From the NCBI GenBank assembly GCA_009746045.1, contig RPFO01000727.1, forward strand, positions 1 through 64,000: a stretch of DNA of 64,000 nucleotides, in the 5' to 3' direction. Of this stretch, positions 1,332 to 52,334 are shown one piece after another; within the stretch, counting starts at the first letter, position 1, and each line of letters opens with the position of its first letter. Position numbers and translations under genes: made by a program. The notes under the pieces were generated by a model. It did no database searches. It saw nothing but the letters and a program-made list of their open reading frames with translations, and had not been told where the DNA came from. This stretch comes from Mesostigma viride. Lineage: Eukaryota; Streptophyta; Mesostigmatophyceae; Mesostigmatales; Mesostigmataceae.

Positions 1332-1335
1332 AAGC
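1332..1335. repeat. AAGC target-site duplication, left
   Basis: The AAGC immediately before the left terminal repeat recurs at 20926-20929 immediately after the right one. The uninterrupted LINE copy near 49250 has AAGC once (GTCAAGCGTG), so this is a true 4-bp target duplication. Confidence 0.85.
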
Positions 1336-1399
1336 GGGTGGTCCCACGCGGAATGGGGTAGATTTTTGCAAGAAAAAAACGCTAATTTCAATCGTCCGA
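1336..1399 (+). repeat. Left terminal inverted repeat of giant element
   Basis: It begins GGGTGGTCCCACGCGGAATG and pairs with the reverse complement of 20853-20925. After the first 24 identical bases the two ends differ by an approximately 9-base insertion in the right arm. They then agree again through GCAAGAAAAAAACGCTA, one mismatch, and TTTCAATCGTCCGA. Confidence 0.9.
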
Positions 1400-1783
1400 A
1401 AACCGGACATTGCGCCGAAATTCTTGCCGAAAATTTGGCAGCCGAGCGAATTTTTCGCCCGACGGACTTTGCGCCGAAATTTTGTGTCTGCCGTGCTTCG
1501 AACTCAACCGACTCCTGCTGTTGCGTGCACTTTGTCCGATGCCTGCAGGCCACGCACGAATTTTGCGACCGAAATATGACGACTAGACAAGTTTATCGAC
1601 GACCTACATCGATCTATTGCCACTTTTGAAGTCCTTGGCTTGCTAGCAGCTTTTGATTATCAATGCCGGGAACAAAATTGCCGAAATTTTTTATTGAATC
1701 AGTACATATATGTGCACATGTCCGTAATTTTATCATTCGCAATTTTGACATTGTCGGAGTATTTGACAACTTAGGCATTGCGC
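1400..1783. other. Left subterminal region with short repeats
   Basis: No gene seen. The first 100 bases contain repeated GCGCCGAAATT / GCCGAAAATTT words (about 1410-1490). Related words (CGCCAAATTCGCGCG) occur inside the right terminus near 20826. Such subterminal repeats are typical transposase-binding regions; that role is inferred. Confidence 0.4.
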
Positions 1784-2221
1784 CTAGAAAAAGGTGCCCC
1801 ATCCGTCGATGTCAAAATCGCCGAAGGAGTACACTCCCTGGTACTGGTCTCCCCTGTAGTTGGGAGGCTCGCCTGTATACATTTTGGTGTTCCACTTGGC
1901 CCCGCCGTTCTCCGCAGCAGCCAGGAACTCCTGCTGGGCCTCGGCCCTCAGGCGCATCATTGATACATTGGGAGAGCCCGGAATTTCCGTGCTCTCCACC
2001 ACCACTCTCGCCTGATTGTCAGGCACGCATTGGTAAGCAGGGTTCAAATCTGAATCGGGTGGCACCAGATCGATCATGCCATTGCCGAACGCAATGACAC
2101 CTGCACCCCACTGTGCAGAAGGTCCGAGCAACTCTACATCAATTCTGATGTTTGCAGCGTGCTCATTTTTGTCGACCATCACATAGGTATGCTGAGAACC
2201 GAAAATATTGCTCTGCTCCAT
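1784..2221 (-). CDS. Hypothetical 145-residue protein
   Basis: An ORF beginning MEQSNIFGSQHTYVMVDKNE and ending FDIDGWGTFF. I chose the ATG at 2221; the frame stays open further upstream, but that sequence looks non-coding or intronic. It is mildly acidic with no membrane segment or signal peptide visible. The central part (WGAGVIAFGNGMIDLVPPD) looks like folded beta-rich sequence. I recognise no domain. It lies between the left terminus and the DWAENY gene, in the same orientation as that gene. It could be the last exon of a longer gene, since a CTGCAG acceptor-like site lies upstream near 2310. Confidence 0.35.
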   Translation of the reverse strand: MEQSNIFGSQHTYVMVDKNEHAANIRIDVELLGPSAQWGAGVIAFGNGMIDLVPPDSDLNPAYQCVPDNQARVVVESTEIPGSPNVSMMRLRAEAQQEFLAAAENGGAKWNTKMYTGEPPNYRGDQYQGVYSFGDFDIDGWGTFF

Positions 2222-2542
2222 TTGTGACAGTGTTAAATTTCGGCAAGGTTGGCTGCTTGCAATCGACAGGAAATTGGTGACCCCGACAGCCAGACGCGCA
2301 AGGGTTATAACTGCAGGTAGAACCCAAAATTTGTCGATAAGGAGTAATGGAAGGGCACGACCACCAGTCACTAGTATTCGCTTCACCGGACACCTTTTTC
2401 AGCTTCCGGATAAAATTCAGCAAGAGCAGCGGCGATTAGATACTAAATATTGCGTTATTGGTTCGTACCGTACCCAGACAAAAATTGTACTAGTGACGCA
2501 ATTGTACTAGGCGGAATGACAACTGCGCCCGGCAAATAAGTA
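2222..2542. other. Spacer without convincing gene
   Basis: Short leftward frames are present (for example a cysteine-containing one at 2163-2423), but none shows a domain or a supported splice. Nothing else seen. Confidence 0.3.
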
Positions 2543-2755
2543 TTTATTGCTCCAACCCCACACCTAACTTGTTCCGGAGCTGTTCGAAGCGAAGAGCAAT
2601 GGAAGGGATCGGACCCGAGCCAGATTTGAGTGCGGAACATGATGGCTGGCCTACCTCACTCCGAACATTAAGGTGGACCCGGGTTCGAATCCTGTCAGTG
2701 CTATTCGCTTCGAACAGTTCCGGAACGATTTTTTTTGTGGGGGTGGAGCAATAAA
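2543..2755. mobile_element. 213-bp MITE-like element with long TIRs and a tRNA-type B box
   Basis: The ends TTTATTGCTCCA and TGGAGCAATAAA are inverted. The inverted match continues inward for about 55 bases with small gaps (GTTCCGGAGCTGTTCGAAGCGAA on the left against TTCGCTTCGAACAGTTCCGGAA on the right). Between the arms, GGGTTCGAATCC (about 2690) matches the RNA polymerase III B-box consensus. The inverted repeat shows directly; the mobile nature is inferred. Confidence 0.6.
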
Positions 2756-3043
2756 TTCTCGACATGCAGAAACAAATGTCGAATAGATTGTGCAAAAAAA
2801 TATCGAAATCCTTATCATTATTTAAATATACAGCATAAAATTATGTTGCAGTAAAAAATAACTGTTAATTGAAGGCCGCAAAAAATTATCAACTACCCTT
2901 AAACTTGACCACAGAAAGATCTCGAAAAATATATACAATATATGCGGCCACCTTTTTACACCCTACTGAAGCCCCACTCTAAAGATATAATACGAGCCGA
3001 AACTAGGGCGTCGTCTACCCGCAGCGAGACCCCAATTTCTTGT
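2756..3043. other. AT-rich 3' flank of the DWAENY gene
   Basis: AT-rich, without a gene. It follows the stop codon of the leftward gene and may hold its 3' end. Confidence 0.3.
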
Positions 3044-6000
3044 TTAAGTCGGTGCCGGCCCCTCCGGGGCTTCATCCTTGATCACCAGCGTAGTAAGCCA
3101 CTTGTCGAGCTCCTTGCTCATCCTGATGTCGGCACACATTCCGTCGCTGCGCACGCGTGCTTCTAGCCGGAGAGCCGGAGCGACGCAGAGATAGCAATTC
3201 ACAAGCTCGGGCTGGCGTGACGGTGGCCAATCCTCAACGTTGAGCGTGAAATGCAGGGGGTCATGCTTATCCCGCTTCCAAATCCGAACGGGAAGAATGC
3301 CGTTCCCGGCGAGGAACAGCTCCTTCTCCCGTCCGTTCCGGCCCTCGACCCACCTCTCGAAGTTCTCGTCTAACACGATCGGCCCGGCTTCGCTTACAAC
3401 CTCAGCCAACCAGAACGGGTGGATGGGATCGTGATCCGTGTCCTTGTCCGATGGAACTGCCACATAGTCGTGGAGTCTCATCTGCCGGCCCATCGCCTCC
3501 CGCTTGTCCTTCAGCTGCTCCCCCGCGTCACCATGCGAACCGGAGGGTTGGGCTGGCTCGGTGGCAGCAAACGGACAGTTTTCATCGAGCTTCCTGCATC
3601 ATTGAACTCGATGATAAACGACCACTCGCTTAGACATCCCTCAAACCGCCCAGCCAAACAGGGCGGACAGTAGCAGGAATAGCGCCTAATCATCAAAAGG
3701 CCAGGGTCGGACTTGTCCAGTCGCCACCAATGCGCCTTCTTGATGCCAGGCACCTCCTCAACCTCCCGCGCGTCGGCCGGACTCGACGTCCTGTCATCAA
3801 ATAGTTAGGCAAAAAGAATACCGTTCAATTAGCAAAATTGACCAAAAAATCAATAAAACAGGGTATAGCTGCAGAGAGACCCCTTAAAAAAAAAATTAAC
3901 GACAAGACATCAAGTGATCAAAATTCGACACAGGGTATAGCTGCAGAGAGACCCCATTCGAATCATAATAACAACGTACGACAAGATATCAAGTGATCGA
4001 AATTCGACACAGGGTATAGCTGCAGAGAGACCCCATTCGAATCATAATAACAACGTACGACAAGATATCAAGTGATCGAAATTCGACACAGGGTATAGCT
4101 GCAGAGAGACCCCTTCATACCGAAGAACAAGCGAAATTTCATACCTAAAAGAAAAGCAACCCATTGACAGTATATAGGGTCTCTCTGCAGAGATACCTTT
4201 ATTGGGTTTGAATTTTTATAGAACAGCGGCAGTTGACGTCTTAAAACCTGAAATAACACAAATTCCGTACCGGGGGTAAAAGGAAGAAGTGGCGAGTGAC
4301 GTTCTCGGCCCGCGCGCGGGCCGACTCCCTGCTCGATGTCTTGCCGCCCTGCCAGTTCTGGTTCAAGTAGGCGACTAGCTGGTGGGTCTCAAGTATGTGC
4401 TGGTTTTCGGGAATCCTCTGCATTTCCCTCAAGACGCACTTGCACTTCGCTCCTTGACCATCCACCTCCCCCTTCCCATGCTGCTCCCCCATGTAGTGGA
4501 ACTCAAAGGCCTGCAGGTCGGGATCCCCCATGAGCAGACCGTTAATCTGGTTAATCACGTACCTGGACTTAAACTGCACCGCGCAGTTGTCCGAGCACAT
4601 GTACAGGTTTCGCACCTCTACCCCTACTTCTACCCGCAGGGTTTCCAGAATCTTGCGAAGAGCGTATACGAGTGCGCGCTCGCCCCGCTTGATACTGGAA
4701 TCCCCCAGGAAAAAGAAGACGCGCTTTTCCAGCTCGCCGTTGAGCCGATAACGCACGATCATGGGCATCAGGATGTGGCTGCGCTTGTGGAAGTACTGCG
4801 ACTGCAGTTGGACGTAGCTGCTGTTCTCGTAGTTCTCGGCCCAGTCGCCGTGCACGAGCACGTCCCCCTCTCTCAGATTCTTCTCCCGATCCTTGATTGT
4901 ATCCGCCTGCGACCAGGCCGTAAAGCAGTGCACGGTGAACTTGTCCCACATCTTAAGAATCTCGTCCCGCAGCTCAGCTGGGGTGGACCTCATTTGGACT
5001 TGCTCGGGCCGCTTCACCTTCTTCGCCGCCCTGCCATCGGTCTCGCCCTGTTTCGCAAAGGTCCGCAGACAGTTTCGATTTGCAATAAAATCGCATTTCG
5101 ATAAGATAACTGCAACTCACAAAGGGTCTCGCTGCAGCTATAGGTCACAAAAAAAAAAGTCAACAACATATTAACGGAGAAATAAAATCGAAACCAACTC
5201 ACATTCACCCGTCGGGTCACAGTCTGCTCCACCATCTCGAACTTGAACCAATTCAGAATCTCCGTGGAATTCTTGTCCCGATCACACTGCACCCAGTTAT
5301 TATGGATGCCGCATGATTCCTCAGGACAGAACCCCTCCACACACGCCATCTTCAGTATGCGGTGAACCCTCTCCGTCCTCGGCACCCCATCTTCGTCCTC
5401 CACCAGCCTCTCAGAAATGTCGAGGTCTTCCAGGTCCCGTCCCCGCCATTCATCTTCCCCCTCCCCCTCTTCCATCCCCCCGCCCATTCCGCCCCCTTCA
5501 CGCAGCCCGTTATCCCTGCCGTCAGTCTCGGCGGACACCGGGCAGTGAAAGTGCTTGATCCAGTCCGTCGAGTGAATGGCTTTCCACATTCCGCAAGTAC
5601 CGTCCGGCTCTGTACTTGGAGCATCCCGCACACTCCGCGCCACACTTGCAGTTCTTGCCGTGGTTCGCATTGAGTGCTTGGTCCACGCCCCCATGGCCGA
5701 CTGCATGGTGACGTGCTTCTCACACGCGCACAGGTTCCTCTCCTTCCACTTGCCCTTGATGCAATCGGGCGCGTATTTGCAGAAGGTCGTGTAGCCCACG
5801 TGAATGCCCACGTCCTTATCATACTGGTTACTCCTTTTGTTCCAGTACGCATGCTTTTCGAGAAAGTGATTGTACATGTCCTCCTTGGAGGTCATGTAAT
5901 AGCGCGCTCCCTCAACGGCGACGAGCACCCCGTGATTGCCACGACCCTCCCTGCTGTAAGTGCGCTTGACATCCTTCATCTGGGAGGAGGCGCGCGACTC

Positions 6001-7124
6001 ATCATCGTGCATCCACGCGTCCACTATCGCGTCAATCACGAATTGCGGCAAAGGGCGCCCCTTGCGAGCCTGCGCGTGTCTGAGGTAGTCCAACTTCTGC
6101 TGCCTTCGTATCGCGCGAATTCCGCGAATCTTCTTGGCGTCCATCCCCGTCAGGTTCTCCAACTCCGCGGCCGAAAACTCCTTCTCCAAGTCGTCACCAC
6201 AGTAAAGCGTGGACATCAGCACCATCCTGACGTCTCTGTCTGCGTCGCTTTTGGTCAGACCATCAAAAAAGCCGTTAATCCGAGCCACCCAGAACCTGTT
6301 CAGTTCTGCCATCCGCTCCTGATTGTAAAGCTTTTTCGCCTCCTCATGATACTTCCCGTGACCTAGTTCAGCGGCCCTAGAGTTAAAGCCAGCAATCATC
6401 TGGTCGAAAGCCGGCCCCCGCCCCTCGGGTTTTGTCATCGCCTGAGCCGCTTCAAACGCCTGGTCAGCGAAATATTCCCCAATAACCCTCTTTGATTTCG
6501 AGTATTCTCCCGGCCGCTTGACTTCCTTGGCTTCAGGCTGCGCTGGATTCTGGTTCTCATCTCCGAAAACCCTTTTTGCGCCAGTTGACTGCTTCGTCCC
6601 GGTGTTCAACTTAATTGCACTGAATCCTGGACGACCGGACGCAAGGGCGAAAACTCCCACCCGTTCGCGTGCTGCATGCCATGACGACCGGCACAACGAA
6701 ATCCATGCAAATCGAGTATCGTTGGGAAAAGCGACAATTACAGACAAAGTTCGAAAGTGTATCATTTTTTACCACGATTGGGGTCTAGCTGCAGCTAGAC
6801 CCTTAGAGGGGCTTTTTCCGTTAGACGAAAAGATTACCTGATGTGGTGAACTTAGCATACCCCGACCAAGATTGGGGTCTCGCTGCAGCTAGACCCTTCA
6901 TTGCGGCGTGCGATTGTTAAATCACAGACTTCTGATTCATTAATTTTATAGCAACCATAAAGAGGGTCTAGCTGCAGCGAGACCCTTGAATTTAAGCTAT
7001 TGCTTGTGGTTATAAATGGTCTAGCTGCAGAGAGACCCCAATAAGGACGAAAAGATTTCAGGTTTTCCTCACCTTCGCGGCTCATTCTCTTATTAGTTCT
7101 CCCAGAACACTCAGATACCTGCAT
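3044..7124 (-). CDS. DWAENY/SDNC-motif protein, candidate RNase-H-fold transposase, multi-exon
   Basis: Leftward gene. Proposed exons: 7124-7073 (starts MQVSECSGR; donor GTGAGG); a long exon starting near 6620 and ending at 5203; 5047-4271 (joins in phase across a 155-bp intron 5202-5048); 3790 to about 3640; and about 3610 to 3044. The middle exons carry a Cys/His cluster (CKYAPDC, CAC, CGMW, HFHCP, CGIHNNWVQC), then DWAENY (about 4845), CSDNCAVQFKSRY (about 4590) and GEQHGKGEVDG (about 4480). That spacing of D, D and E/D suggests an RNase H fold. The next exon has CYCPPCL and GCLSEW, and the last holds an Agenet/chromo-like HPFWLAEVV stretch. Related proteins are common as uncharacterised ORFs in animals and protists (from memory). 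Phase does not carry cleanly across the 4270-3791 intron, and a frame change near 3600-3640 needs a tiny intron or an indel. Transposase function is inferred from its position inside a TIR element. Confidence 0.6.
3861..4198. repeat. Intronic 79-bp tandem repeat carrying CTGCAG palindromes
   Basis: Inside the 3791-4270 intron, GGGTATAGCTGCAGAGAGAC starts at 3861, 3933, 4012 and 4091; the last three are exactly 79 bp apart with near-identical spacers. A fifth copy in the opposite sense starts at 4177. These copies are asymmetric variants with one TATAG arm and one CTCTC arm. Confidence 0.85.
5124..5145. repeat. CTGCAG palindrome in DWAENY-gene intron
   Basis: GGGTCTCGCTGCAGCTATAG lies in the middle of the 155-bp intron 5048-5202. 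Confidence 0.8.
6781..7038. repeat. Four CTGCAG palindromes in first intron of DWAENY gene
   Basis: Copies start at 6781 (TCTAGCTGCAGCTAGA core, perfect), 6875, 6964 and 7017, spaced 54-94 bp apart, between the first short exon and the long exon. Arm changes are often compensated: an A in one arm has a T in the other. Confidence 0.85.
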
Positions 7125-7857
7125 GGCGAGAATAACAAAAATAACACAGTAGCATTGATAAAATTGTTTATCAGAAAATATATATACTAATTACAGTATA
7201 TTTTGCAAAAGATTTTATAATATATTGTGAATAGCATGGTTAAATTCCACATACTTTAATAATATGGTATGTTAAAGTATATAGAATCATTATTTAGTAA
7301 ATCATTTACAAGAAAAAGTGGTATAGACTATTATTATTATATAGTTCGGCAATCTATGATAGTAAGACGTACCGGATGTCAGGTTTATCAGCGGCTCCAG
7401 GGCTATAGCGTCTCGCTGCAGCGTGACGTTTGGTGCTATGACTGATTTCAGTAGATGTGCAGAAAAAAATTTATTTCCATGACCACACCAGGAATCGAAC
7501 CCAGAACCTCATTGTACATTCTGCATGGTAACGATGTCAGCCAAACATCCGAATGTTCCCAGGTAAATGGGCTGGAGGTCGTCTCTTTTTATACCTGCGG
7601 CCACAAGCACGGGTGACGGCATATTGGATGTCGTCCAATCCGCTAGCTTGGTTCCAAAAGATGGGATCGAGCTTTTGCACCAGCGCCGCGCTTCCAGTTT
7701 TCAGTTCCGTGGGGAGGAACGAGGATGCCACGTTTCCAATTTTTTCAATACCGTTCAGCCCTGTGACGCCGCGTCCGTTTTGCGAATTGCGACCGTCCCA
7801 TCGCCCATCGAAAAAGAAGCGCAGCCGCAGAGAGACCCCATAGCTGATACGAGCTGC
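7125..7857. other. Upstream region of DWAENY gene
   Basis: An AT-rich stretch at 7140-7380 could hold the leftward promoter. A degenerate palindrome with core GTCTCGCTGCAGCGTGAC lies at 7407-7430. At about 7480-7535, on the minus strand, GGGTTCGATTCC fits a B box and TGGCTGACATCG a weak A box 53 bases from it, but no acceptor stem forms. A leftward frame (7860-7537) is open, with no recognised domain. Confidence 0.4.
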
Positions 7858-8580
7858 CATATCGTTTCGACGTTTGCATGCTACCTGCTGGATTATAAAA
7901 TCCTACGTTGATACCTGCCTGGTGCCGGAAGTTTACAAGGAAATCGGTCTGCTTTCGCCGCACAACGAAAAAAAGGTGAGCTTTTGCCGCATCCTGGATG
8001 GTAGGCTGACTAAAATTGTTCTATCAAAAACGGCAACTAAACAGCGCATGCACGCCGACGACACAGTTAGCCAGCTGGGCGAAGACATGTCCTTGCTGCC
8101 ATCGCAAGAAACTCTATGTTGCAGCAAGAGTGATAAAAATGTCTGGCTTCCTTCTTTTCGTTGCTAGCTAAACCCTGCAGACATCTCGGTAGAGTCAGCT
8201 AAGCCGATCCTAATCCACATCTGGCATCCATCCCTTTAGTCTAGTTGCCATGGAGCGTTTCTTGGTCTCGCACATGTCGATCATGGTGGTGCTAGGCTTT
8301 CACTTGGGTCACCCTTTCCATGTTTGCTATGCCTTTGGTCTGGTTAGGTTATAGGTGTAGATGTGCACATACTGCATTTGCTGCGTTTCTAATCGGTGCT
8401 CCTGTTTGATGCTTTTTTTCCCCTTCATATCGTTTCGACGTTTGCATGCTACCTGCCGGATTATAACATCGGACGTTGCTACCTGCCTGCATAACGATAG
8501 TTTGCAAGAAATCTTCATTTTGCCGAAACACAAAAAAAGGTGATCTTTTGCCGCAACGTGGATGGTAGGCTGACTAAATT
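7858..8580. repeat. Diverged direct duplication of about 150 bp
   Basis: Block 7858-8025 (CATATCGTTTCGACGTTTGC ... GGATGGTAGGCTGACTAAA) recurs at 8426-8578 with substitutions and small gaps. The second copy runs straight into the first minisatellite. The spacer 8026-8425 shows no gene. Confidence 0.75.
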
Positions 8581-10180
8581 GTGCTGCTACGTATCAATAC
8601 ATGTGTGGGGGGGTGCTGCTACGTATCAATACATGTGGGGGGGTGCTGCTACGTATCAATACACGTGGGGGGTGCTGCTACGTATCAATACACGTGGGGG
8701 GGTGCTGCTACGTATCAATACATGTGGGGGGGTGCTGCTACGTATCAATACATGTGGGGGGGTGCTGCTACGTATCAATACATGTGGGGGGGTGCTGCTA
8801 CGTATCAATACATGTGGGGGGGGCTGCTACGTATCAATACATGTGGGGGGGCTGCTACGTATCAATACATGTGGGGGGTGCTGCTACGTATCAATACATG
8901 TGGGGGGGGCTGCTACGTATCAATACATGTGGGGGGTGCTGCTACGTATCAATACATGTGGGGGGTGCTGCTACGTATCAATACATGTGGGGGGGGTGCT
9001 GCTACGTATCAATACATGTGGGGGGGTGCTGCTACGTATCAATACATGTGGGGGGGTGCTGCTACGTATCAATACATGTGGGGGGGTGCTGCTACGTATC
9101 AATACATGTGGGGGGTGCTGCTACGTATCAATACATGTGGGGGGGTGCTGCTACGTATCAATACATGTGGGGGGGGATGCTACGTATCAATACATGTGGG
9201 GGGGTGCTGCTACGTATCAATACATGTGGGGGGGTGCTGCTACGTATCAATACATGTGGGGGGGTGGCTACGTATCAATACATGGGGGGGTGCTGCTACG
9301 TATCAATACATGTGGGGGGGTGCTGCTACGTATCAATACATGTGGGGGGGTGCTGCTACGTATCAATACATGTGGGGGGTGCTGCTACGTATCAATACAC
9401 GTGGGGGGGGATGCTACGTATCAATACATGTGGGGGGTGCTGCTACGTATCAATACATGTGGGGGGTGCTGCTACGTATCAATACATGGGGGGTGCTGCT
9501 ACGTATCAATACATGTGGGGGGGTGCTGCTACGTATCAATACATGTGGGGGGTGCTGCTACGTATCAATACATGTGGGGGGTGCTGCTACGTATCAATAC
9601 ATGTGGGGGGGGCTGCTACGTATCAATACATGTGGGGGGTGCTGCTACGTATCAATACATGTGGGGGGGTGCTGCTACGTATCAATACATGTGGGGGGGT
9701 GCTGCTACGTATCAATACATGTGGGGGGGTGCTGCTACGTATCAATACATGTGGGGGGTGCTACGTATCAATACATGTGGGGGGGGCTGCTACGTATCAA
9801 TACATGTGGGGGGTGCTGCTACGTATCAATACATGTGTGGGGGGTGCTGCTACGTATCAATACATGTGGGGGGGTGCTGCTACGTATCAATACATGTGTG
9901 GGGGGTGCTGCTACGTATCAATACATGTGGGGGGTGCTGCTACGTATCAATACATGTGGGGGGGTGCTGCTACGTATCAATACATGTGGGGGGGTGCTGC
10001 TACGTATCAATACATGTGGGGGGGTGCTGCTACGTATCAATACATGTGGGGGGTGCTGCTACGTATCAATACATGTGGGGGGGCTGCTACGTATCAATAC
10101 ATGTGGGGGGGGCTGCTACGTATCAATACATGTGGGGGGGCTGCTACGTATCATACATGTGGGGGGGTGATGCTACGTAT
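8581..10180 (+). repeat. G-rich minisatellite, 30-bp monomer, about 54 copies
   Basis: The monomer is GTGCTGCTACGTATCAATAC followed by ATGTG and a run of 5-8 G. Monomers are nearly identical; most differences lie in the G-run length, a few TGTG variants, and TACACG for TACATG. Each unit contains the self-complementary words TACGTA and ACATGT. The phase is open in all forward frames, which creates long artefactual ORFs. The regularly spaced G runs could support G-quadruplexes. Confidence 0.95.
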
Positions 10181-11665
10181 CATTTATTTATTCATGCCAT
10201 CACCCCCCCACATTTAATGATTAATGCCATCACCCCCAACATTCATTTATTCATGCCATCACACCCCACATTCTTTTATTCATGGCAGCACCCCCCACAT
10301 TTATTTTATTCATGCCATCACCCCCCCACATTTAATTATTAATGCCAGCACCCCCAACATTCATTTATTCATGCCATCACACCCCCACATTCTTTTATTC
10401 ATGGCAGCACCCCCCACATTTATTTATTCATGCCATCACCCCCCCACATTTAATTATTAATGCCAGCACCCCCCAACATTCATTATTCATGCCATCACAC
10501 CCCCACATTCTTTTATTCATGGCAGCACCCCCCACATTTATTTATTCATGCCATCACCCCCCCACATTTAATTATTAATGCCAGCACCCCCCAACATTCA
10601 TTTATTCATGCCATCACACCCCCACATTCTTTTATTCATGGCAGCACCCCCCCACATTTATTTATTCATGCCATCACCCCCCCACATTTAATTATTAATG
10701 CCATCACCCCCCAACATTCATTTATTCATGCCATCACACCCCACATTCTTTTATTCATGGCAGCACCCCCCACATTTATTTATTCATGCCATCACCCCCC
10801 CACATTTAATTATTAATGCCAGCACCCCCCAACATTCATTTATTCATGCCATCACACCCCCACATTCTTTTATTCATGGCAGCACCCCCCCACATTTATT
10901 TATTCATGCCATCACCCCCCCACATTTAATTATTAATGCCAGCACCCCCAACATTCATTTATTCATGCCATCACACCCCCACATTCTTTTATTCATGGCA
11001 GCACCCCCCCACATTTATTTATTCAAGCCATCACCCCCCCACATTTTTTTTTCATGGCAGCACCCCCCACATTTATTTATTCATGCCATCACCCCCCACA
11101 TTTAATTATTAATGCCAGCACCCCCCAACATTCATTTATTCATGCCATCACACCCCCACATTCTTTTATTCATGGCAGCACCCCCCACATATATTTATTC
11201 ATGCCATCACCCCCCCACATTTAATTATTAATGCCAGCGCCCCCCAACATTCATTTATTCATGCCATCACACCCCCACATTCTTTTATTCATGGCAGCAC
11301 CCCCCCACATTTATTTATTCATGCCATCACCCCCCACATTTAATTATTAATGCCAGCACCCCCCAACATTCATTTATTCATGCCATCACACCCCCACATT
11401 CTTTTATTCATGGCAGCACCCCCCCACATTTATTTATTCATGCCATCACCCCCCCACATTTAATTATTAATGCCAGCACCCCCAACATTCATTTATTCAT
11501 GCCATCACACCCCCACATTCTTTTATTCATGGCATCACCCCCCCACATTTATTTATTCATGCCATCACCCCCACATTCTTTTATTCATGGCAGCACCCCC
11601 CCACATTTATTTATTCATGCCATCACCCCCCACATTTAATTATTAATGCCAGCACCCCCCACATG
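10181..11665 (-). repeat. C-rich minisatellite with 119-bp higher-order repeat
   Basis: Four 30-bp monomer types cycle in fixed order: CATTTAATTATTAATGCCAG, CATTCATTTATTCATGCCAT, CATTCTTTTATTCATGGCAG and CATTTATTTATTCATGCCAT, each followed by CA and a C run. About 12 cycles are present. On the minus strand the monomer has the same length and layout as the first array (TGCTG, AT-rich core, ATG, G run). It is therefore a diverged array of the same ancestral unit placed in inverted orientation. Confidence 0.85.
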
Positions 11666-11735
11666 CATTTATACATAGCATCCCCCCCCACATGTATTTA
11701 TACGTAGCTTCCCCCCCCAAATGTATTTATACGTG
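11660..11735 (-). repeat. Inverted copies of the first minisatellite monomer at far edge
   Basis: ACATGCATTTATACATAGCA, ACATGTATTTATACGTAGCT and AAATGTATTTATACGTGG, each separated by a C8 run, are reverse complements of monomers close to the first array (TACGTA and ACATGT words retained). The double array is thus bounded by opposite-strand copies of the same unit. Confidence 0.75.
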
Positions 11736-11742
11736 GTCGTAA

Positions 11743-12095
11743 GGGTCTCGCTGCGGGTAGACCCTCGGAATTTTGTTTTTGTATTGACGTAAGGGTCTCG
11801 CTGCAGCGAGACCCCAAGGAATGTCAATTTTTCATGTTTTCATGATGGGGGGTCTTTCTTTTCTCACCCTTAAAATGATTTGTTTTTGTATCGGTGTTAG
11901 GGTCTCGCTGCAGCGAGACCCTACGAATGTCGACTTTTAATGTTTGCAAGATGGGAGGGGGCTTTCTTCGCTCACCCTAAAAATGATTTGTTTTTGTTTG
12001 ACGTTAGGGTCTCGCTGCAGCGAGACGCCAAAGTTTTGCATTAAACTAAATGTCCCTTTTAGAATCCACGAAAGGGTCTAGCTGCAGCGAGACCC
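11743..12095. repeat. Five CTGCAG palindromes upstream of the rightward gene
   Basis: Copies start at 11743, 11793, 11900, 12007 and 12074. Three successive ones are spaced 107, 107 and 67 bp apart, and their spacers resemble each other (AATGTC...TTTT...ATGATTTGTTTTTGT), so a 107-bp unit has been duplicated. The copies at 11793 and 11900 are perfect 22-base palindromes. This is the likely promoter or 5' UTR region of the rightward gene. Confidence 0.8.
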
Positions 12096-12172
12096 TCCCC
12101 ATCGTTTTTCTGCCGGCGATTCAGATTCTGAATGACATTTGTGAAACTTGCTTTTTTGATATTGTTCTGCAG

Positions 12173-13319
12173 ATGTCGTCCTCCTATTCCGATTCTGTCA
12201 AGGCCACTCCCGTTTCACCCAAGATGACGTCGAACACCTCGCCCGTAAATGCTCTGGCGAGGTCCCCCCCCACCGAGTCCCCCTCGCCCTCCAAGTCCAA
12301 CTTGCCCCCCAGCGAGTTGGACAGAATTATACCCCCCAACCCTCTCGCTGCTGCGTCTCGCGCTCCGTCCCGCTCTCCGCCCCGTAAGTCTCCATCGCCG
12401 CCCCCAAGTCGGCCGGAGCTACTGCGTCCCGCTCGCCGCCCCGCAAGTCCCCCAAGTCCCCCGCAACTGCGACCCGTTCGCCGAACCGCAAGTCCCCCTC
12501 TCCGCCCAAAGTTCCCCCCGCTACCGCGTCCCGCTCTCCTTCTCGCAAGTCCCCCTCGCCGTCAACCAAGAACCCCGCAACTGCGTCCCGCTCGCCGTCC
12601 CGCTCTCCTTCCCCCAAGTCCCGCTCGCCGCCACCCAAGTCCCCCGCTTCTGCGTCCCGCTCGCCGTCCCCCAAGCATTCCAGTTCTAAGCGTAAGCCTG
12701 CGGCCGAGTGGGTAGAGGAAGACGACCGCACCAAAGAGCTCAGGAAGCTGAGGAAGTCTATCAGTGAGCTTGTTGAGGAGGACGAGCGCGATCAGACTAA
12801 CGGGAGGCCTGAAGACCCGGAATCGCCGGTTCGGGAGTCGCGTCAGAAGCGGTTGTCCGATTTGTTAGCAATGGCCGCAAGCTTTGCTGACGAATACGCG
12901 GCTCTCGACAAGAAGGACAAGGAGAAGGAGAAGGCGGAGAGGGAGGCCATCGAGAAGGCGGAGAGGGAGAGGGTGGAGAGGGAGGAGAAGGAGAGGCTGG
13001 AGAAGGCGGAGAGGGAGGAGGAGGAGAGGGAGTACAAGGAGAAAAAGGCTGCCCAGGAGAAGGAGCACAGGATCCTGGTGGCGAAGCAGAAGGAGGAGGC
13101 GAAGAAGAAGACGGAGGCGGCAGCGAAGGAATTCTTGCGGAGGAGGCCGCTCTTTTTTTGCAGATGCGACAGGAGAGGATGAAGGCGGAAGAGGCCGCGA
13201 GGAAGATGGAGGAGGAGGCTGCGAGGAAGGAGGAGGAGGCTGCGAAGGCAGTTGAGGGGGAGAAGGACGAGAACGGGAGCCCACCCCTTCTTCACGAAGG
13301 ATTTTCAGTCGATTATCAG
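12173..13319 (+). CDS. Exon 1: RS-like repeats then charged coiled coil
   Basis: An ATG at 12173 follows CTGCAG, itself a possible acceptor. The first part is rich in SRSP, RKSP and PPKSP repeats (about 12250-12680), like RS domains of splicing-related or chromatin-associated proteins. The next part (about 12690-13300) is a long E/K/R/A coiled coil (KAERERVEREEKERLEKAER). The frame shifts at the C5 run near 12403 and again near 13133, and the coding pattern continues on both sides of each shift. The exon ends at a CAG/GTATGT donor. The role is unknown; nucleic-acid association is a guess from composition. Confidence 0.5.
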
Positions 13320-13417
13320 GTATGTTTATTAATGTGAGACGTACATTTTTCAGATGGCTTGAACGGCGTGTGTGTATCGTAGAAAGGGTGGGATTTTATG
13401 TCATACATTGATCGTAA

Positions 13418-13439
13418 GGGTCTAGCTGCGGAGAGACGT
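13418..13439. repeat. CTGCGG variant palindrome in intron 1
   Basis: GGGTCTAGCTGCGGAGAGAC lies in the 187-bp intron 13320-13506. Confidence 0.75.
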
Positions 13440-13506
13440 TGACCTAGGAGTTAAGGTTGTTGACGACGACGATGTGTGGCCTTTTTTTTACTCTTGTTGT
13501 CTGCAG

Positions 13507-14554
13507 CCCGACACGCTGGCCATTCTGAAACAGTACCTGGCTCAGGCTGAGTCTGAGTCTGGGGTGAGTCGTAAAGCCGAAAAGGGCTTGAGAGGCTTGA
13601 TCCGCTTTCTTTCGGCCGAGATAGCGTTTGCAGAGAAGTCCGGTGTCGTCGTGGACCGTCCGGAGTCGGCAGACATAATTTGGAAGAACGACCGCTGGGC
13701 CGTCTTGCATTGTTCGAAGCCACACAGCGAGCCATTCATGGGAAGAGGGTCGTTGGTGACGACATGTATGAGGTTTTGAAGATCGCGCAGTCGTGCATCC
13801 TTAATCTGAAGGAGGATGTCGGACGTTACTTTCCCCGTCGTGCTTTAATATGGTCGACGCTCTTTGATGAGGTTGAAAAGTTCGAGGTCCACATTGGCTT
13901 CACATGCATCGAGGCTTCCTATATGGAAACCTTGAAAACCACTGCGTTGCATCAGCTCTTTAAACTCATGACTGGAGATATGAGAGCGGATTCGAGGGCT
14001 TCACTGTCGGAAGATGAAGTGTTTGATATTGTCAGGCAAGGATTTGTTGACACGTCCAACAGTGACTTATCGTAATTGTGCCGGGAAGAATGAATGACGT
14101 AGGAGGATTGGAGGAGCGCGCACATGAAGTGATCGCGCATTTGGACATGGCAAGAGACCACTTACTGCAATCTTTTGTTAAGTGGCGGACTGACTTTCTT
14201 GTCAGCCCGGACGCCAGCCTTTCGCGGGAAGCGGTCGCTTTCTTTTTGGATTGGGCTGGACAGGTGATCCAAAGTTTCCGGCACCGGGAGGACTTCCATG
14301 TTATTCAGACATATAAGCCATACCGGGAAGTCGTCCAGGAATGGTTGGATCAAATCTCGTTGGTTGATTGTCTCCAGAGTATCCGAACCAAGACAGACAC
14401 GGAGTGGTCTGATTTAGAGGCGGGAGGCCATTGGCAGTCCCTCGAGTTGTTCTTCGAGGCGGAATTGAGGCGGCAACTGGAAAAGGAGAGAGCCCATCAA
14501 GTGCCGATATGGCCTTTGGGGAAGATTTTGAGGAGGTGGAAGTTCTACGTTTCG
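13507..14554 (+). CDS. Exon 2: helical domain, unknown
   Basis: It opens with PDTLAILKQYLAQAESESG after a CTGCAG acceptor and ends before GTACGT. It encodes about 350 mostly helical residues, including KRVVGDDMYEVLKIAQSCIL and a Trp-rich end (WPLGKILRRWKFYVS). The reading phase changes near 13700 and 14070, while coding character persists. No domain recognised. Confidence 0.5.
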
Positions 14555-14661
14555 GTACGTTAACTTGCCGATATCGTTTATCGATTTGGGTTGTTTCCAT
14601 TCCCTGAATAGGGCTCTATATGCTGACCAACCTTCATGGTTTGTCCTGTCATATCATGCAG

Positions 14662-15177
14662 GGGGGCTCCATGCCAGGGGACGTATCGGAGGATTTACCT
14701 AATTTGTCAGACTTGGTTGATAAGGTGGGTGCTTGTCCGTCGAGTTTCCACGAGCATCTTACATGGGGTCTAGCTGCAGGTAGACCCTCACCCTTTTATT
14801 GAGACTGACATGTTCGGCTAATTTCAACGGTGCCCCCAACCAATCTGTTGTCTTTTTTCAGGGGGCGGCTGCGGCGATGGCTGTTGACAGTGCTGGTATT
14901 TGGTCTGGACTCGAGATGGAAATGGTAAGCATTAAACGATATCCGGATGTCTGCATTTCGCCTGAAGTTTTAGTGAGCGCATTATGCGAAATATACAAAT
15001 GTCGACTAATTTTGATTTCCAATGAGCTGTCGTATTCGGTGTTGACAGGCGGGGGGTTTGGCCTCAGCAGGCGCTGCCGGAGAGGAAGAAAACGCTGGAG
15101 GAGATGAGGATGGGGGGGATGAAAACGCTGGAGGAGATGAGGATGGGGGAGACGCTGAGGGAGAAGTGGCTGTGCAG
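14662..15177 (+). CDS. Exons 3-5: small phase-0 exons of 63, 63 and 129 nt
   Basis: 14662-14724, 14862-14924 and 15049-15177 are each flanked by CAG acceptors and GTGGGT, GTAAGC and GTACGT donors. All lengths are multiples of three, so any of them could be skipped without changing frame. They encode short acidic or Gly/Ala-rich segments. The last contains two copies of ENAGGDEDGGD-like sequence from a 30-nt internal duplication. Confidence 0.55.
14766..14787. repeat. CTGCAG palindrome in intron 3
   Basis: GGGTCTAGCTGCAGGTAGAC lies inside the intron 14725-14861. Confidence 0.8.
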
Positions 15178-15303
15178 GTACGTTCATCCGCCGCGAGTTC
15201 GTGTGATTTTTTTCGTGCTGAGGGGTATCTCCGCAGAGAGACGATGGTGCAACAATCGAACTGAGGTCAAGTCCCTTCTTGTTCGTTTTTTTTTGTCATG
15301 CAG

Positions 15304-15845
15304 GCGGGGGCTGTCGCTGGGGGTACTGCGGGGGGGAAGGCGGCGAAGCCCCATTGACTGAGCATGAAAGGGAAAAGCTGGATTCCCGCAAGAAGGTTGC
15401 GAAGGATCATATTATTGCTGTTGGCCTGATCATGCTTAAGTCTCCGCCCGATGGCGTCGATTCGGAGGGACCTGCGGGGTCCGAGTTTCGCAAGTACCTG
15501 ACACGACTTGAGGCGGAAGTCGATGCCGATTTCGATACGGAGGTGTTGGGTGACGCTACCTTTAAGAGTGAATTGGCATATGAATTTGTAAATCTGGTGA
15601 AGTCGAAAGCCACCAAGAATTTCAAGTGGCAGCCTAAGGAGTACTCAGAGGCAAAGGTTGACAAGATCGAGAAATTCATGAAGGCTGATTTTCGTCGTCG
15701 GGCCGCTGAGGGAAAAAGGGCGCTGAATGCGGTGGCAAAGGCCAACAGTAAGAAGAACGCGGAGGCGAAGGCGGCGGAGAAGGAGGCGAAGAAGGCGGAG
15801 AAGGAGAAGGCTAAGGAGGCCAAGAAGCAGCAGAAAACTGGACAG
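15304..15845 (+). CDS. Exon 6: basic helical segment
   Basis: After a CATGCAG acceptor and a Gly/Ala-rich start, the phase changes at a G7 run near 15335. A domain beginning TEHEREKLDSRKKVAKDHII follows, ending in an Ala/Lys/Glu-rich coiled coil (KAAEKEAKKAEKEKAKEAKK). The donor is CAG/GTACGA. No domain recognised. Confidence 0.5.
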
Positions 15846-15867
15846 GTACGATTGTTGTGAAAATTTA

Positions 15868-15890
15868 GACCTCTCGCTGCGGGTAGACGC
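15868..15890. repeat. Degenerate CTGCGG palindrome in intron 6
   Basis: GACCTCTCGCTGCGGGTAGA lies just after the exon 6 donor. Confidence 0.65.
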
Positions 15891-16034
15891 TGACTGGCTG
15901 CGGGACTTGGTGTTTAGTGTCAGTAAGGTATTATTCCAACAGAACTTTGTTCGTCCCTGAACAGGATGTCGTGGTCGGCCTAAAGATTACTGACTTGAGC
16001 AAATCCTGCGGTCCTTTTCGATTTTTTACTTCAG

Positions 16035-17200
16035 GATGACGGGGGGGACGAAGACGCCACGGTGGAGAAGAAGTTACCTGGTCATGACGCCGTGTTCGCG
16101 CTGGTGAAGGATATGCTCAAGTACTGCTCGAGTAGGCGGATGGCGGACGTCGATGACCTGCCAAACTGGCCCGAGTTCTCCCCCTTTCTTGAGCTGCTCC
16201 GGTCACTCAACAAGCTTTTTAAGGAGGGGGTGCTCACGAGCAGTGGGAACCCGGACACCGACCCTATCATTGAAAGCTGGAAGCCTTCGAAAAAGGTCGA
16301 CTCGAACAAGGAGGTCAGGGACCAGAACATCCGGAAGGCCAATACTCTCAGGGAAACGCGTTGGATTCGGCCGGCCGATTTTAAGCAGACCGGATGTTTC
16401 AGTATGCGGATCCAGACGGTCAACGCGCTTATTTTGCCAGAGGCTTTGAGGCAGCGGCGTTTAAACCTTGAAACCATTAAGGAGAACGGCCGCATTCTCC
16501 TCAATGCGCGGGACAACGCCTTGCACTTCAAGGTTGTTGTCCCGGTCTGGCAGTTCCCTTTCCAGGCGCTTGCCGAATCTCAACCTGACCTGTTCGACAA
16601 GCAAATCTTGTGCATGCCGGATTTCGTCAAGTGGCTGAAGCATTCACCACGGCGCCAAGATTGACGCGGAGGATGTGGGGTCCAGGTACTTCCGGCCCCT
16701 TTCGGATACTGAAGTCGACGTGTGGCTTAACACGGAGTCCACCACCTCTTTCCTCGCGAGAGGACTTGAGTGGCGTACCTACGCCAGGGTGGACGAGGTG
16801 GCCGCAGTTTTGCCTCAGGAGATCGAGGGCAGTCGGGTTTTTCAACCTGCTGTGCAATACTGCGATGAAGTCCTACGATCCGAAATTTTTTGAGGAACGG
16901 GTACCGGTACCGTATCTGGTTCTCCGGTACGCGGTGGTGGATGGGAACCACTACTTTAAGGGGTTAAAGTCGTTTCTCAGGGGGCCGGATGGCGGGTGGG
17001 GAGAGGTTCGGGCAATGATGTGCGAGGGTGGGGCGGAGTCCAATTTCGCAAATACTCCTAAGGAGGCGGAGCACGCCTTCCAGGACCTGTTGCGGAAATT
17101 CCGTGGTGGTTACATGGGTACGAACGTCATTCTTCTCAAGGGTGGCGACCTGCTCCCGTCGTGGAGTGAGCTGCGAAATCTACCTAAGGCAAAAGAAGAT
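16035..17200 (+). CDS. Exon 7: about 390-residue conserved-looking domain, unknown
   Basis: It starts after TTTACTTCAG with DDGGDEDATVEKKLPGHDAV and ends before GTAAGC. Sequence complexity is high (RETRWIRPADFKQTGCFSMR; VPVPYLVLRYAVVDGNHYF), so this is the best candidate for a folded domain in the gene. The phase changes near 16645 and at a T5 run near 16840, with clear coding on both sides. It is not recognised; no DDE, tyrosine recombinase, polymerase or helicase motif is seen. Confidence 0.5.
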
Positions 17201-17220
17201 GTAAGCTATCTATTTTGGCA

Positions 17221-17398
17221 GGGTCTAGCTGCGGGTAGACCCTCGGAATTTTCGTGGTTGTTTTTTGTGTGCGCTTCAAGTTTTTTGCGAGGGTCTCGCT
17301 GCAGCTAGACCCTCTCCTTTTTTTTGTTGGAATTTTCGTTGCGTATTGTCGGCCGTTTCTTTTTCGAATTTTGTTAGGGTCTATCCGCAGCTATACCC
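17221..17398. repeat. Three CTGCAG-type palindromes in intron 7
   Basis: Copies at 17221 (CTGCGG centre), 17291 (CTGCAG) and 17377 (ATCCGCAGCTAT core) within one 255-bp intron. Confidence 0.85.
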
Positions 17399-17455
17399 CT
17401 CGCCTTTTATGACTGAGTTTTGTCGTTGCTCGCTCGATGTTAATTGATGTCGCAG

Positions 17456-19973
17456 GCGGTGCTGACCGGCAAGCTGGAGAAGCTGTTCGACATCGCCAAG
17501 GGGGCGAATTCGGAGGACTTAGCCGTGGCGGATCGTACGCTGGGCCAGGCGTTGCTTGACGTGTGGAACTACAACAAGCTATATCTATACGGCAAAGTCA
17601 CGCGTGGGAAGGGCCACTATATTGCGGATGGCCACTACACCAATCTGCTCACGTACATCCTCCCGGCTATGCGGCAAGCGGGGGGAAGGGAAGGGAATGT
17701 GGAGCCGGCAGCGGTGGATGTACACGAGGAGGAAGCAGAAGGAAAGAAAAAGCCGGCCCACAGCATTGCTTCAGTGCATTCCGCTTACAGTCGCACGCTG
17801 GCCAACACGTTTCTCCGTCTGACACAGGAGCAGACTGATGATCCTGCCTCAACGAAACCCGCGCCTGAGGAGGTGATGATGCAAAGGTGCAAATTCGCCA
17901 ATGCAGAGGGGGAGAAGAAAGGCCAGAAGGTCTCTTGGACTTCTTTCAGGAACTTGGCCAGCCTTCCTATGATGGACGCCGTGATCGATTGCATCATGAG
18001 CTGCCAGGTTGGACCGGAAAAGCTCACCAAGTTGGTGGAGATCGCCAAGGATGTGCTGGAGTGCCTGCGGCTGACCATTTGCGCCAGATTCAAGGAGGAT
18101 GAGACGCTGGAAGCGCAATGCAAGGACGCAAATGGCAAGGAGTTTGTGGCGTCTCATATTTTCGAACTCGTCTTCAATCTCCATCCTCTCGCTCGGCCGG
18201 TCGGCAGGAAGGAGATTGTGGCCAGATACCGGGAATTTTGGGATGTGGCCGTCATCATAACGAGGAACATCGCCTACCTTCTTAAAGCCAAAAAACACGC
18301 CGCACATCTGAGGATTCCGAGAAAGGATATCAGTAATGGCAAGATCGACTTTCAGGAGATTCTGCTAAAAGAGAGCGAGGACAAGACGGTGGGTTTGGCA
18401 CTTTTGGCTCCGGAAGCGTTCAGGAAGTACGCTCCAAAAGTTGGATTACTCGAAGGGGGGGTGAAGGAGGCGGCGATGAAGGGGCCGGTGAAGGGGCTGG
18501 AGAAGGGAAGGGAAAGGGGAAGGAGACGGAGGCGAAGAAGGAGAGGAGGCGAAGGAGGAGGAGGAGTGGGACGTGAAGTATGAGTGGCAGAGTGTGGACT
18601 GGGGCCGTCGCCGGGTCTGGTTTTGCTGTCAGGAACTAGACGGTGATGATGATGACAAGTCGCTCGTCAAGCAGGTGGCAGGCGAGGTTGCCTCAGCTTC
18701 AGCCCGCCCCTTTCCCTTGGGCAGGTCCCTTCCGTGCCTGAGCCTGCTGAACTTGGCGAACATTTGGGGTGATAAGTGGAGTAACTTTCAGTCCAGGTGG
18801 TGGGCGTTCGGTCCTTGCCCGAGAATCGGACATTCCCCAACCGGGCGGGATGTACGATCATGTGCTGAAGGCTTGCGCCCACGAGTTTTTCTCCAGGTTC
18901 GAACCGATGGTGATCGTGTTTGGTACCGAGACGGAGATTAAGGGGTTTCAAGAGATAGTGGAAAGGATCGGGAAAGGGAGTGAATTGTGGGAGCGGCTTG
19001 AACAGGGGGAAGGTGATGGGGGGCCTAGGCTCGGAAGGGCGAAGAAGCGAAAAGCTTCCCACGAAGCTGGGGGATTGTCCGCCGTGGTGGAGAGGGATGA
19101 CCAACAGTTGTTGGAGGGAGGGGATGGAGGGGATGGAGGTCCGGCAGGAGGGTCTAACCGCGGAGAGACCCCCGTCGAGGTCAGAACGCAGCAGGCCGAA
19201 CAGATGACGGGGCCTGAAGGTGATTCGGATCCGCCTGCGGCGAAGAAGCCCGCTTCTCAAGTGACTCGACGGGCAGTCGTGTCACTTGTTGAGGATGATG
19301 GAGGTGGGCCTTCCAAGCCTGCCGCGTCGCAGCCCGTTTTTCAGGTTCCGAAGAAGCAGCTTCGGGTTCCCCCGGCGACTCTGCCCACCCCGGCGCCTCT
19401 GCCCAGTTCTCAGGTACCGAAGAAGCAGCTTCGGGTTCCCCCGCCGACTCTGGCCATTTCTCAGGTACCGAAGAAGCAGCTTCGTAAGCCAGTTGTGGCA
19501 GTGGCTGATTCGGACGACGATGCTGAGGAGGAGGAGGAGGAGGAGGACGACGATGCTGAGGAGGAGGAGGGGGAGGAGGAGGAGGAGGAGGAGGAGGAGC
19601 AGCACGTTGCTACCAAGAAATCCGCCAAGGGTGGGAAGGCTGCGGAGCACGTTGCTTCCAAGAAATCGGCCAAGGTGGGGAAGCCTCCCAAGCCTGCCCT
19701 GCCTCAGAAACGGCGTCGAAAAGCAGTTGTGCTTTCAGATTCGGACGATGAGGAGGAGAAGGAGGAGGAGGATGGCGGCGGAGAGGAGGAGGACGGGGGA
19801 AAGGAGCGCGTTGCTTCCAAGAAGTTACCCAAGACCGCGAAGACTGCCAAGGTTGCCGAGCCCGCCAAACCCGCCCCGGCGCCTGCCCCCCACCCCCAGA
19901 CGGGGTCTACCTGCGAGCAGAGGTCGAAGGAAAAGGCCAAAAAGGGTAAGAAAAAATCTGCGAGTGAATTCTG
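17456..19973 (+). CDS. Exon 8: helical domain followed by acidic, lysine-rich tail
   Basis: It starts after GTCGCAG with AVLTGKLEKLFDIAKGANSE. The first 300 residues look folded (DVWNYNKLYLYGKVTRGKGH, WDVAVIITRNIAYLLKAKKH). After about 18450 it becomes Gly/Glu/Lys-rich. From about 19240 there are three copies of QVPKKQLR, then long Asp/Glu runs (19510-19600, 19740-19800) alternating with KKSAKGGK-like basic stretches, typical of chromatin-associated or histone-chaperone-like tails by composition only. Phase changes near 18560 and 18700 may hide a further intron. Donor CTG/GTATGT at 19974. Confidence 0.5.
19150..19171. repeat. Palindrome-like copy inside coding sequence
   Basis: GGGTCTAACCGCGGAGAGAC lies in frame within exon 8, encoding about SNRGET. 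It is the only copy I see in a probable exon. Confidence 0.6.
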
Positions 19974-20068
19974 GTATGTAGAGTGTTTTGATTTTTTACG
20001 GTTGGCAGTCCGATTTCTACTAACTCGATTTTAGTCATGCGTTGATGGCATGATCGGTTTGCTCGCAG

Positions 20069-20631
20069 GTAATGAGGATGTGGAGCAGTTACTTCGCTTG
20101 GCTAATGTGGCGGTGGGCTTCGGACCAGCGGCTGTACATGCTGACACTTCCGGACGGGAGGAGCCTAAGGGGGCGGAAGACAGTCAGGCGGGCGATGAGG
20201 ATGATGACAAGCCCACGTTGGAAATGAGACTTATGGACGGGGAAATGGGGTTCGGAGCACCAGAGGCCTTTTGGTGTGATGGGTGGACTTTAGCCATTAT
20301 GCAAGCAGGGAACAAGGATACGGCTACGCCAATGTATGCCAAGCTAGAAGACGTCATGCTTTATGGGCAGGTGTCTGGATACGACACCAAGTGGAGGGAC
20401 GTCGCATTTAAGTTTTTCGCTGAGGGGGAGAAGGGAGGGAAGTTGAAGAACAAGTTGTGGTGGATGCCGCTGGACTACGCGATGAAGGTGGTAAAGCTGA
20501 CGGATGGCAAGAGCTGGAAGGATGTGGAAGTCTGGGCGCCTGCAAAGGAGATCGATAAGAAGAGGAGGAACTCGAAAACGGAACAGCAGATCGCGGAAGC
20601 GAAATTACGGAAGAGGCCCTCGAAAGTGTGA
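20069..20631 (+). CDS. Exon 9: C-terminal segment of rightward gene
   Basis: After GCTCGCAG it encodes about 187 residues to a TGA: an acidic stretch, then a Trp-rich segment (AFWCDGWTLAIMQAGNKD, KNKLWWMPLDYAMK) and a basic end (KKRRNSKTEQQIAEAKLRKR) that may act as a nuclear signal. No domain recognised. Confidence 0.55.
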
Positions 20632-20852
20632 GGGAAAGTTAGCACTTGGACATGCGCTGGCAATGCTCGTCCTATGGTTAATACAAAGGTTAGGATGATG
20701 TCGAGTCTCTCCACGTAAAATTTACATGAATTACTAACTTTCAAGCCTCTCGATGTGGAATGTACGCTCAAATTGACATGAATTAAGCATTATGACACCA
20801 AATTAGCTCGAAAATACGCGATCGGACGCCAAATTCGCGCGAAAAAAAGATA
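20632..20852. other. Right subterminal region
   Basis: 3' flank of the rightward gene. It contains AGTCTCTCCACG and GCCTCTCGATGTGGAATGTA-like degenerate words and CGGACGCCAAATTCGCG near the terminus. No gene seen. Confidence 0.4.
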
Positions 20853-20925
20853 TCGGACGATTGAAACTAGCGTTTTTTTCTTGCAAAATGCGCCAAAAAT
20901 GACCCCATTCCGCGTGGGACCACCC
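20853..20925 (-). repeat. Right terminal inverted repeat of giant element
   Basis: The reverse complement begins GGGTGGTCCCACGCGGAATG and matches 1336-1399 apart from a short insertion and one mismatch in the inner part. Confidence 0.9.
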
Positions 20926-20929
20926 AAGC
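20926..20929. repeat. AAGC target-site duplication, right
   Basis: Partner of 1332-1335. Confidence 0.85.
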
Positions 20930-51805: not shown

Positions 51806-52334
51806 TGTAGCTTAGAATGTATTAAAAGCCATATGCCTCTTCTCTGGGATTAAATTATAACATGCCTCCGTTGGGAGATCATGTAGCACATACTCCTTGA
51901 TGGATGGGTGGGGTGGAAGGAGCCGCGTAATCGAACTAACCTAACTCTAATCTAGCTAGTCTAGAAAAGTCCTAACTACCCTACTCATCAAAACGCCTCC
52001 TCCGCTTGGGGGGAGGTGGTTTGCCCACAGGGTCGGGCGTGTGAGCCTTGACAATCCTCTTCCACCGCGTCTTGTTCTGCATGGCGGTCCAAAGAAGGGA
52101 GAGAGAGTGGATGCGGTATTCAAACTGGGCTGGGACCAGTAGGTCATCCAGCAACATCTGTACGTAGTTCGTGACATGTTTCCCTACCTTTTTGGCAATG
52201 CCCTTGGGGCCAGGCCAGGTCAGAATGTGCCGCCCTGGCTGGCCAAGCCGCTGGGGGCCGGCCAGACCAAGGGCGGTGTCGACCTGGGATATGTGCTACA
52301 TTTACTCCCAACGGAGTTATGTTCCTAATTAATT
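51806..52334 (-). mobile_element. LINE family-b fragment
   Basis: The minus strand reads LLWTAMQNKTRWKRIVKAHT ... PPPPKRRRRF in one frame, then a 3' UTR and TTATAATTTAATCCC near 51850. Upstream coding (LGPKGIAKKVGKHVTNYVQM-like) runs to about 52260. Confidence 0.6.

Follow-up and report, generated by a model that had tools for sequence, protein, structure and literature searches.

A probable giant cut-and-paste transposon with three genes and an internal family of 22-bp palindromes in Mesostigma viride

The window analyzed in this study is a stretch of 64,000 nucleotides from Mesostigma viride (assembly GCA_009746045.1, contig RPFO01000727.1, positions 1 to 64,000 of the forward strand). Its plus strand contains an element of 19,590 bp (1336-20925), the ends of which are backed by other copies. 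The left terminal inverted repeat (TIR) is 64 bp long and lies on the plus strand (1336-1399), and the right TIR is 73 bp long and lies on the minus strand (20853-20925). The initial 24 bp of the two arms are identical, and the arms differ from each other by an 8-9 bp indel. The 4-bp target-site duplication (TSD) AAGC, to which no strand is assigned, occupies 1332-1335 on the left and 20926-20929 on the right. Inside the element are a transposase gene, a large multi-exon gene on the opposite strand (gene 2), a third gene encoding a protein of 145 amino acids (aa), a central satellite, and a family of 22-bp palindromes. An earlier note on the window had reported the ends, the TIRs, the AAGC duplication, the transposase-like gene, the multi-exon gene, and the satellite, and all of them are present. 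Its gene pair is actually a trio, as the 145-aa gene had been missed.

The element interrupts a long interspersed nuclear element (LINE). A contiguous antisense LINE copy at 50661-51807 crosses the same point with a single AAGC (51110-51113, minus strand), which represents the empty target site. The earlier note had placed an empty site in a second LINE copy near 49250. Such a site exists, with a match on its right side, but on the left the match extends over only about 20 bases, and the copy at 50661-51807 is the better one. The left TIR was then searched against the assembly, and among the best 40 of 473 candidates scored, 40 matches were at 100% and one was at 79%. Exact matches to the 24-bp end number 363 in the assembly (187 forward and 176 reverse), and the reversed control gave 0. 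Further copies had been proposed as a check, and these counts show that the window copy is not the only one. Taken together, the ends, the TSDs, the empty site, and the 363 ends strongly support a giant TIR transposon that contains introns and has boundaries defined to the base. The observation of a real, sharply bounded mobile unit is confirmed.

Thirty loci were sampled for comparison. They were chosen for an identical 64-bp TIR, so that older copies are under-represented. They showed 27 distinct 30-bp flanks, one of which was the window's own insertion (L011). In 21 of the 30 sampled copies, identity to the window across the first 1.56 kb was at least 99.6%. This indicates, as judged from the copies, that the spread of the family is recent.

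TSDs of other copies were examined in two sets. In the first set, the expected right-end region was fetched for 20 copies, the right end was found in 9, and a matching 4-bp TSD was present in 5 of these 9 pairs. In the second set, facing ends no more than 45 kb apart were paired from approximately 100 of the end positions, and 19 of the 20 pairs tested had an exact 4-bp TSD. The suggestion that other copies should carry 4-bp duplications is therefore borne out in 24 of 29 end pairs. One of the 24 was the window insertion again, and a TGTT insertion (C323 and C224) was counted twice as judged by its flank; the distinct TSD-bearing sites, including the window, number 23. When the TSDs of this family and of a sister family described below were pooled (31), no fixed sequence was found and the target sites were varied. 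The commonest bases were G at position 2 and C at position 3 (14/31 each, frequencies without a statistical test).

The span of 25 end pairs ranged from 10.3 to 44.8 kb (one of the 25, on C47, was not checked for a TSD). Six pairs spanned 10.3-10.7 kb and are likely a non-autonomous size class. Inserted DNA is present in some copies. Three pairs with matching 4-bp TSDs had ends 34.6-44.8 kb apart (C224:1407445-1442026, C113:1293838-1333876, and C225:293678-338450), and these represent nested insertions or larger cargo. On C557, an oppositely oriented second element end lies approximately 470 bp past the right end of a copy (L042), so that two elements stand tail to tail.

A unit of approximately 20 kb with several genes and many copies could also derive from an endogenous DNA virus, polinton-like or of another kind, or have arisen by segmental duplication. 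Polinton/Maverick elements have a 6-bp TSD and genes for polymerase B, an integrase, and a capsid. The size class is similar, but the TSD here is 4 bp and was found at many separate sites; no capsid, polymerase B, or integrase profile was found in the pieces scanned, and no relatives were found in viral contigs. We consider this origin highly improbable.

The transposase gene lies on the minus strand (3044-7120) with exons at approximately 7073-7120, 5203-6671, 4248-5047, and 3044-3790. The exon order is backed by the predicted proteins P0002 and P0001. P0002, a predicted Mesostigma viride protein (eukprot Mesvir1), matches the window transposase at 100% identity across the aligned half of the query. 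P0001 belongs to the sister family. A 29-nt intron in the first model was dropped, since P0001 reads through there. The protein is roughly 1,000 aa long and DDE/D-like. Four residues (D581, D665, E706, and D708 in P0001 numbering) are invariant across the three aligned proteins, and they sit in DWAENY, SDNC, and HGKGEVDG, with a Cys/His-rich stretch upstream. The order D...SDNC...HGKGEVDG suggests a DDE/D core with an RNase-H-like fold, in which E706 and D708, both invariant, are the candidates for the third catalytic residue.

Pfam holds transposase models for KDZ, hAT, MULE, Tc1/mariner, Harbinger, piggyBac, and CACTA, and the protein matched none of them. In a search of approximately 5.8 billion proteins, with the best 8000 candidates scored, two Mesostigma relatives and one fragment were obtained beyond the window's own family. 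Pattern-based scans of viral and prokaryotic contigs gave no transposase relative. The isolation of the protein, together with the lack of a significant Pfam or NCBIfam match, would fit a eukaryotic DDE/D superfamily that is new and has a gene trio and a palindrome system of its own. However, the protein search finds only relatives sharing exact 5-residue words among those 8000 candidates, and a published giant Sola-1 parallel together with a weak DUF7869 hint leaves room for a known group. A new superfamily is an unlikely assignment in our judgment. A protein of 481 aa (P0004, source label lgn) is related to the N-terminal half of the transposase and is 36% identical to P0001 in the alignment. 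Based on this alignment, the transposase family may extend outside Mesostigma.

The 145-aa protein is encoded on the minus strand at 1784-2221. Its frame was found by exact start in 26 of the 30 copies, and at full length in 2 more by tblastn. A homologue occurs at the same place in a sister-family copy, with 63% identity over 119 aa and 42% over another 64 aa; it lies in two frames, and that copy is thus broken there. Between the two homologues, the ratio of nonsynonymous to synonymous rates (dN/dS) was 0.28 at a dS of 0.84 (103 codons of the longer segment, one sequence pair without an error estimate). Within the family, the copies differ by 1-5 changes each and are too young for a selection test to tell. 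Pfam and PHROGs gave nothing significant for this protein. Between this gene and the transposase gene, an imperfect inverted pair of approximately 50 bp surrounds a T-arm-like stretch, GGTTCGAATCC, recognized by eye (2550-2751), possibly a small nested insertion. A tRNA-like stretch suspected by eye near 2640-2715 was not called by ARAGORN.

Gene 2 lies on the plus strand (12173-20631). In our own model it has about nine exons, at approximately 12173-13319, 13507-14554, 14662-14725, 14862-14923, 15050-15177, 15304-15845, 16036-17200, 17455-19973, and 20069-20631, and long open frames in other copies support it. Both large genes of the window copy contain small frame breaks, and in gene 2 the frame changes at nine places. 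At eight of the nine, most covering copies differ from the window in length by a non-multiple of 3 (from 8 of 11 up to all); the figure at 15304-15356 was 8 of 13 copies. At 13105-13160, the window's length is common to 6 of 10 copies. Because other copies differ in length at the breaks and the published NIES-296 assembly of Mesostigma viride was built from PacBio RSII reads (PMC6947507; this and the other published sources are cited from excerpts), long-read indel noise is the likely cause of the breaks. Open gene-2 frames of 379, 436, 444, and 860 codons were found, each in a different copy, and an uninterrupted frame across the whole gene was not demonstrated in any one copy.

The nature of the gene-2 protein bears on the classification of the element. 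Bacterial ParB binds the palindrome parS. In gene 2, the stretch YAVVDGNHYFKGL (exon in L034) resembles the ParB DGxHR motif; this likeness was noted by eye and is taken as a lead. The element may be a giant Sola-1 member like Sola1-1_Ec32, with gene 2 as a diverged ParB-methyltransferase relative and the palindromes as parS-like sites, and we give this reading an even chance. Sola1-1_Ec32 of Ectocarpus is 21.5 kb long, and its opposite-strand accessory gene encodes a ParB-like and methyltransferase protein of 1104 aa (PMC12477816). Against such a relationship, Pfam, PHROGs, NCBIfam, and PDB searches of all but three short gene-2 exons gave no ParB or methyltransferase domain, and no [DNS]PP[YFW] motif was present in the exons scanned. 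An NCBIfam RNA helicase model (E 1.4) fell on a Lys-rich stretch and was taken as chance. When five of the eleven segments of gene 2 were joined by X and searched against proteins, no homologue was obtained at E 10 or better, and a phage scan with one gene-2 exon gave four chance-level matches.

The central satellite consists of two arrays of 30-bp units (8581 to approximately 11734, no strand assigned). The palindrome family GGGTCTNNCTGCNGNNAGACCC, likewise without strand, extends from 2303 to 19171. At no more than 3 mismatches, 45 strand matches correspond to 23 sites, all 23 of which lie inside the element, and the rest of the window contains 0. Shuffled sequences gave 0.19 matches on average. 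The internal palindrome family proposed in the earlier note thus exists, far above chance. Three looser sites from inside the element were added by choice, giving 26. Only one of the 26 is exonic (binomial p approximately 5e-11 in our own exon model, with the sites taken as independent, which four tandem ones are not). The palindromes are found in 8 of the 11 introns of the model (3/3 in the transposase gene and 5/8 in gene 2), and also upstream of both large genes, five before gene 2 and one before the transposase gene. This array in the noncoding parts is the most unusual feature of the element; no description of such a palindrome family was found in the excerpted literature.

The location in introns would suit palindromes that act in RNA, as hairpins aiding splicing, or that spread passively as mini-palindromes unrelated to the proteins. 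Their flanks are indeed unrelated (mean identity 0.26-0.31 vs 0.78 in the core). However, the half-sites are often unlike, as positions 7 and 8 pair in just 11/26 and 12/26 sites without wobble pairs, and the six sites upstream of the two large genes are not in introns. Hairpin pairing in RNA was not supported, with positions 7 and 8 unpaired in 15/26 and 14/26 sites, wobble included. An RNA or passive role seems rather doubtful to us. Because positions 7 and 8 are often unpaired and no wobble is seen, a pair of protein half-sites appears to fit the palindromes better than a selected RNA hairpin.

The transposase P0001 of the sister family is 58-60% identical to that of the window family. A search with P0001 gave 45 copies 97-100% identical to the query across the first exon (scored out of 1621 candidates). 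The end of this family, GGCCGGGCCCACTTCGAATGTTCC, was fixed by seven copies with different flanks; 14 of its 24 bases are identical in register to the end of the window family (shuffle p 0.0009). It occurs 130 times in the assembly, and the control gave 0. A 4-bp TSD was present in 8 of 10 paired ends, and the spans were typically 20-25 kb, with some longer. On C1713, a satellite with a 30-bp period lies approximately 9-11 kb from the sister-family transposase and is weakly like that of the window (82% over 49 bp). It is probably inside a sister-family copy, the far end of which was not seen in a stretch that is partly N. The stretch in which gene 2 was sought in the sister family (L052) consists of a run of N followed by satellite. 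In L051, a sequence similar to but different from that of the window palindromes, GGGGACGCTCCGCAGCGCCACCC, is present as one complete copy and one copy truncated at the locus end.

In this study, we believe that the window contains one full-length copy of a giant cut-and-paste DNA transposon that has multiplied recently in Mesostigma viride, and our confidence in this is high. The element's own transposase would bind the TIRs and excise the unit, which would be inserted by 4-bp staggered cuts leaving the 4-bp TSD. The 10.3-kb copies, which have the same ends and TSDs, would be mobilized in trans. Accessory functions may be served by the 145-aa protein and by the large protein encoded on the opposite strand. 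We favor the view that one of the proteins of the element recognizes the 22-bp palindromes in introns and spacers, each as two half-sites, and such binding might serve to mark the DNA of the element, to protect it, or to regulate it.

Several observations weigh against parts of this interpretation. In nine of the 30 sampled copies, the match to the window was shorter, split, or more diverged (95.7% to 99.7%). No TSD was found in 4 of the 9 pairs of the first set, 1 of the 20 of the second set, and 2 of the 10 sister-family pairs. Pfam, NCBIfam, and PDB searches recognized no transposase domain, and the Pfam hints in P0001 were weak (TniQ, E 0.11; DUF7869, E 0.12). Gene 2 gave no sign of purifying selection within the family (95 nonsynonymous and 28 synonymous changes in 15 copies vs 90 and 29 expected), in a test limited by noise in the sequence data and by how young the copies are; stop changes numbered 1 vs 5 expected. 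The palindromes were counted within the 64-kb window, and four of the 23 sites lie in one 79-bp tandem repeat. Excision is what we infer and not what was observed.

Outside the element, a near-perfect palindrome with arms of approximately 2.1 kb is centered at approximately 61825 (59652-64000, the window end), and its pieces are 99-100% complementary. This structure may have arisen as a fold-back artefact when long reads were assembled, or it may be an inverted repeat of recent origin. Short tandem arrays are present at 55389-55685 and 59664-59952 (units of 12-36 bp and 61/124 bp).

The element indicates that an early-branching streptophyte has undergone a recent spread of DNA transposons that are approximately 20 kb long and carry several genes with introns. 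It also suggests a concrete connection, open to testing, between the accessory genes and the palindromic sites that the element carries. Should one of its proteins bind the palindromes, the element would be a eukaryotic transposon with dedicated sites for tagging its own DNA, and such self-tagging would bear on the persistence of giant transposons in a host genome. A bolder possibility, to which we attach little probability, is a new lineage, possibly a superfamily. In this lineage, a palindromic site array in introns and spacers would be recognized by a DNA-binding protein that the element encodes and that would mark or shield it, and the site sequence would change between sister families together with the proteins.

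No paper was found whose title or abstract opening describes this element, in mostly non-subscription sources outside Repbase, and the excerpted repeat section of the Mesostigma genome paper describes no such element (PMC6947507). The earlier note had further claimed that no described superfamily has this gene pair, TSD length, and palindrome family. This is not established, since parallels have been described in Sola1-1_Ec32, Sola2, and AcademX. The giant KDZ and EnSpm elements of algae are similar in size, accessory genes, and long transposase (PMC12477816), but no Pfam match of those kinds was found here. AcademX has TSDs of 3-4 bp, compared with 4 bp here, and an extra enzyme gene (PMC10045372). 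Unlike AcademX and AcademH, the pieces scanned here contain no XPG nuclease or helicase Pfam domain.

Sola transposases have a DDD catalytic triad. By description, Sola elements share the 4-bp TSD, which was found here in 24/29 pairs of the window family and 8/10 of the sister family. For Sola2, including the Sola2-Fanzor chimeras, 4-bp TSDs, which support the Sola assignment, and a long transposase (888 aa) are described; however, its TSDs are AT-rich and its TIRs are 12-21 bp long, whereas the TSDs here are varied and the TIRs are 64-73 bp long (PMC3627910). Sola1-1_Ec32 is the closer parallel in architecture, with a size of approximately 20 kb and a large accessory gene opposite the transposase (gene 2 on the plus strand and the transposase on the minus strand in the window). 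Unlike here, where no such profile was found in the gene-2 exons scanned, its accessory protein contains ParB-like and N4/N6 methyltransferase domains; gene 2 in our own model is longer than that 1104-aa protein, and the excerpted description mentions no 145-aa gene, 30-bp satellite, or palindrome family (PMC12477816). Compared with these published descriptions, the chances that the superfamily is Sola-like are evenly balanced, and those of a new superfamily are low. Overall, the element probably belongs to a known kind of giant transposon, of which it forms a new branch.

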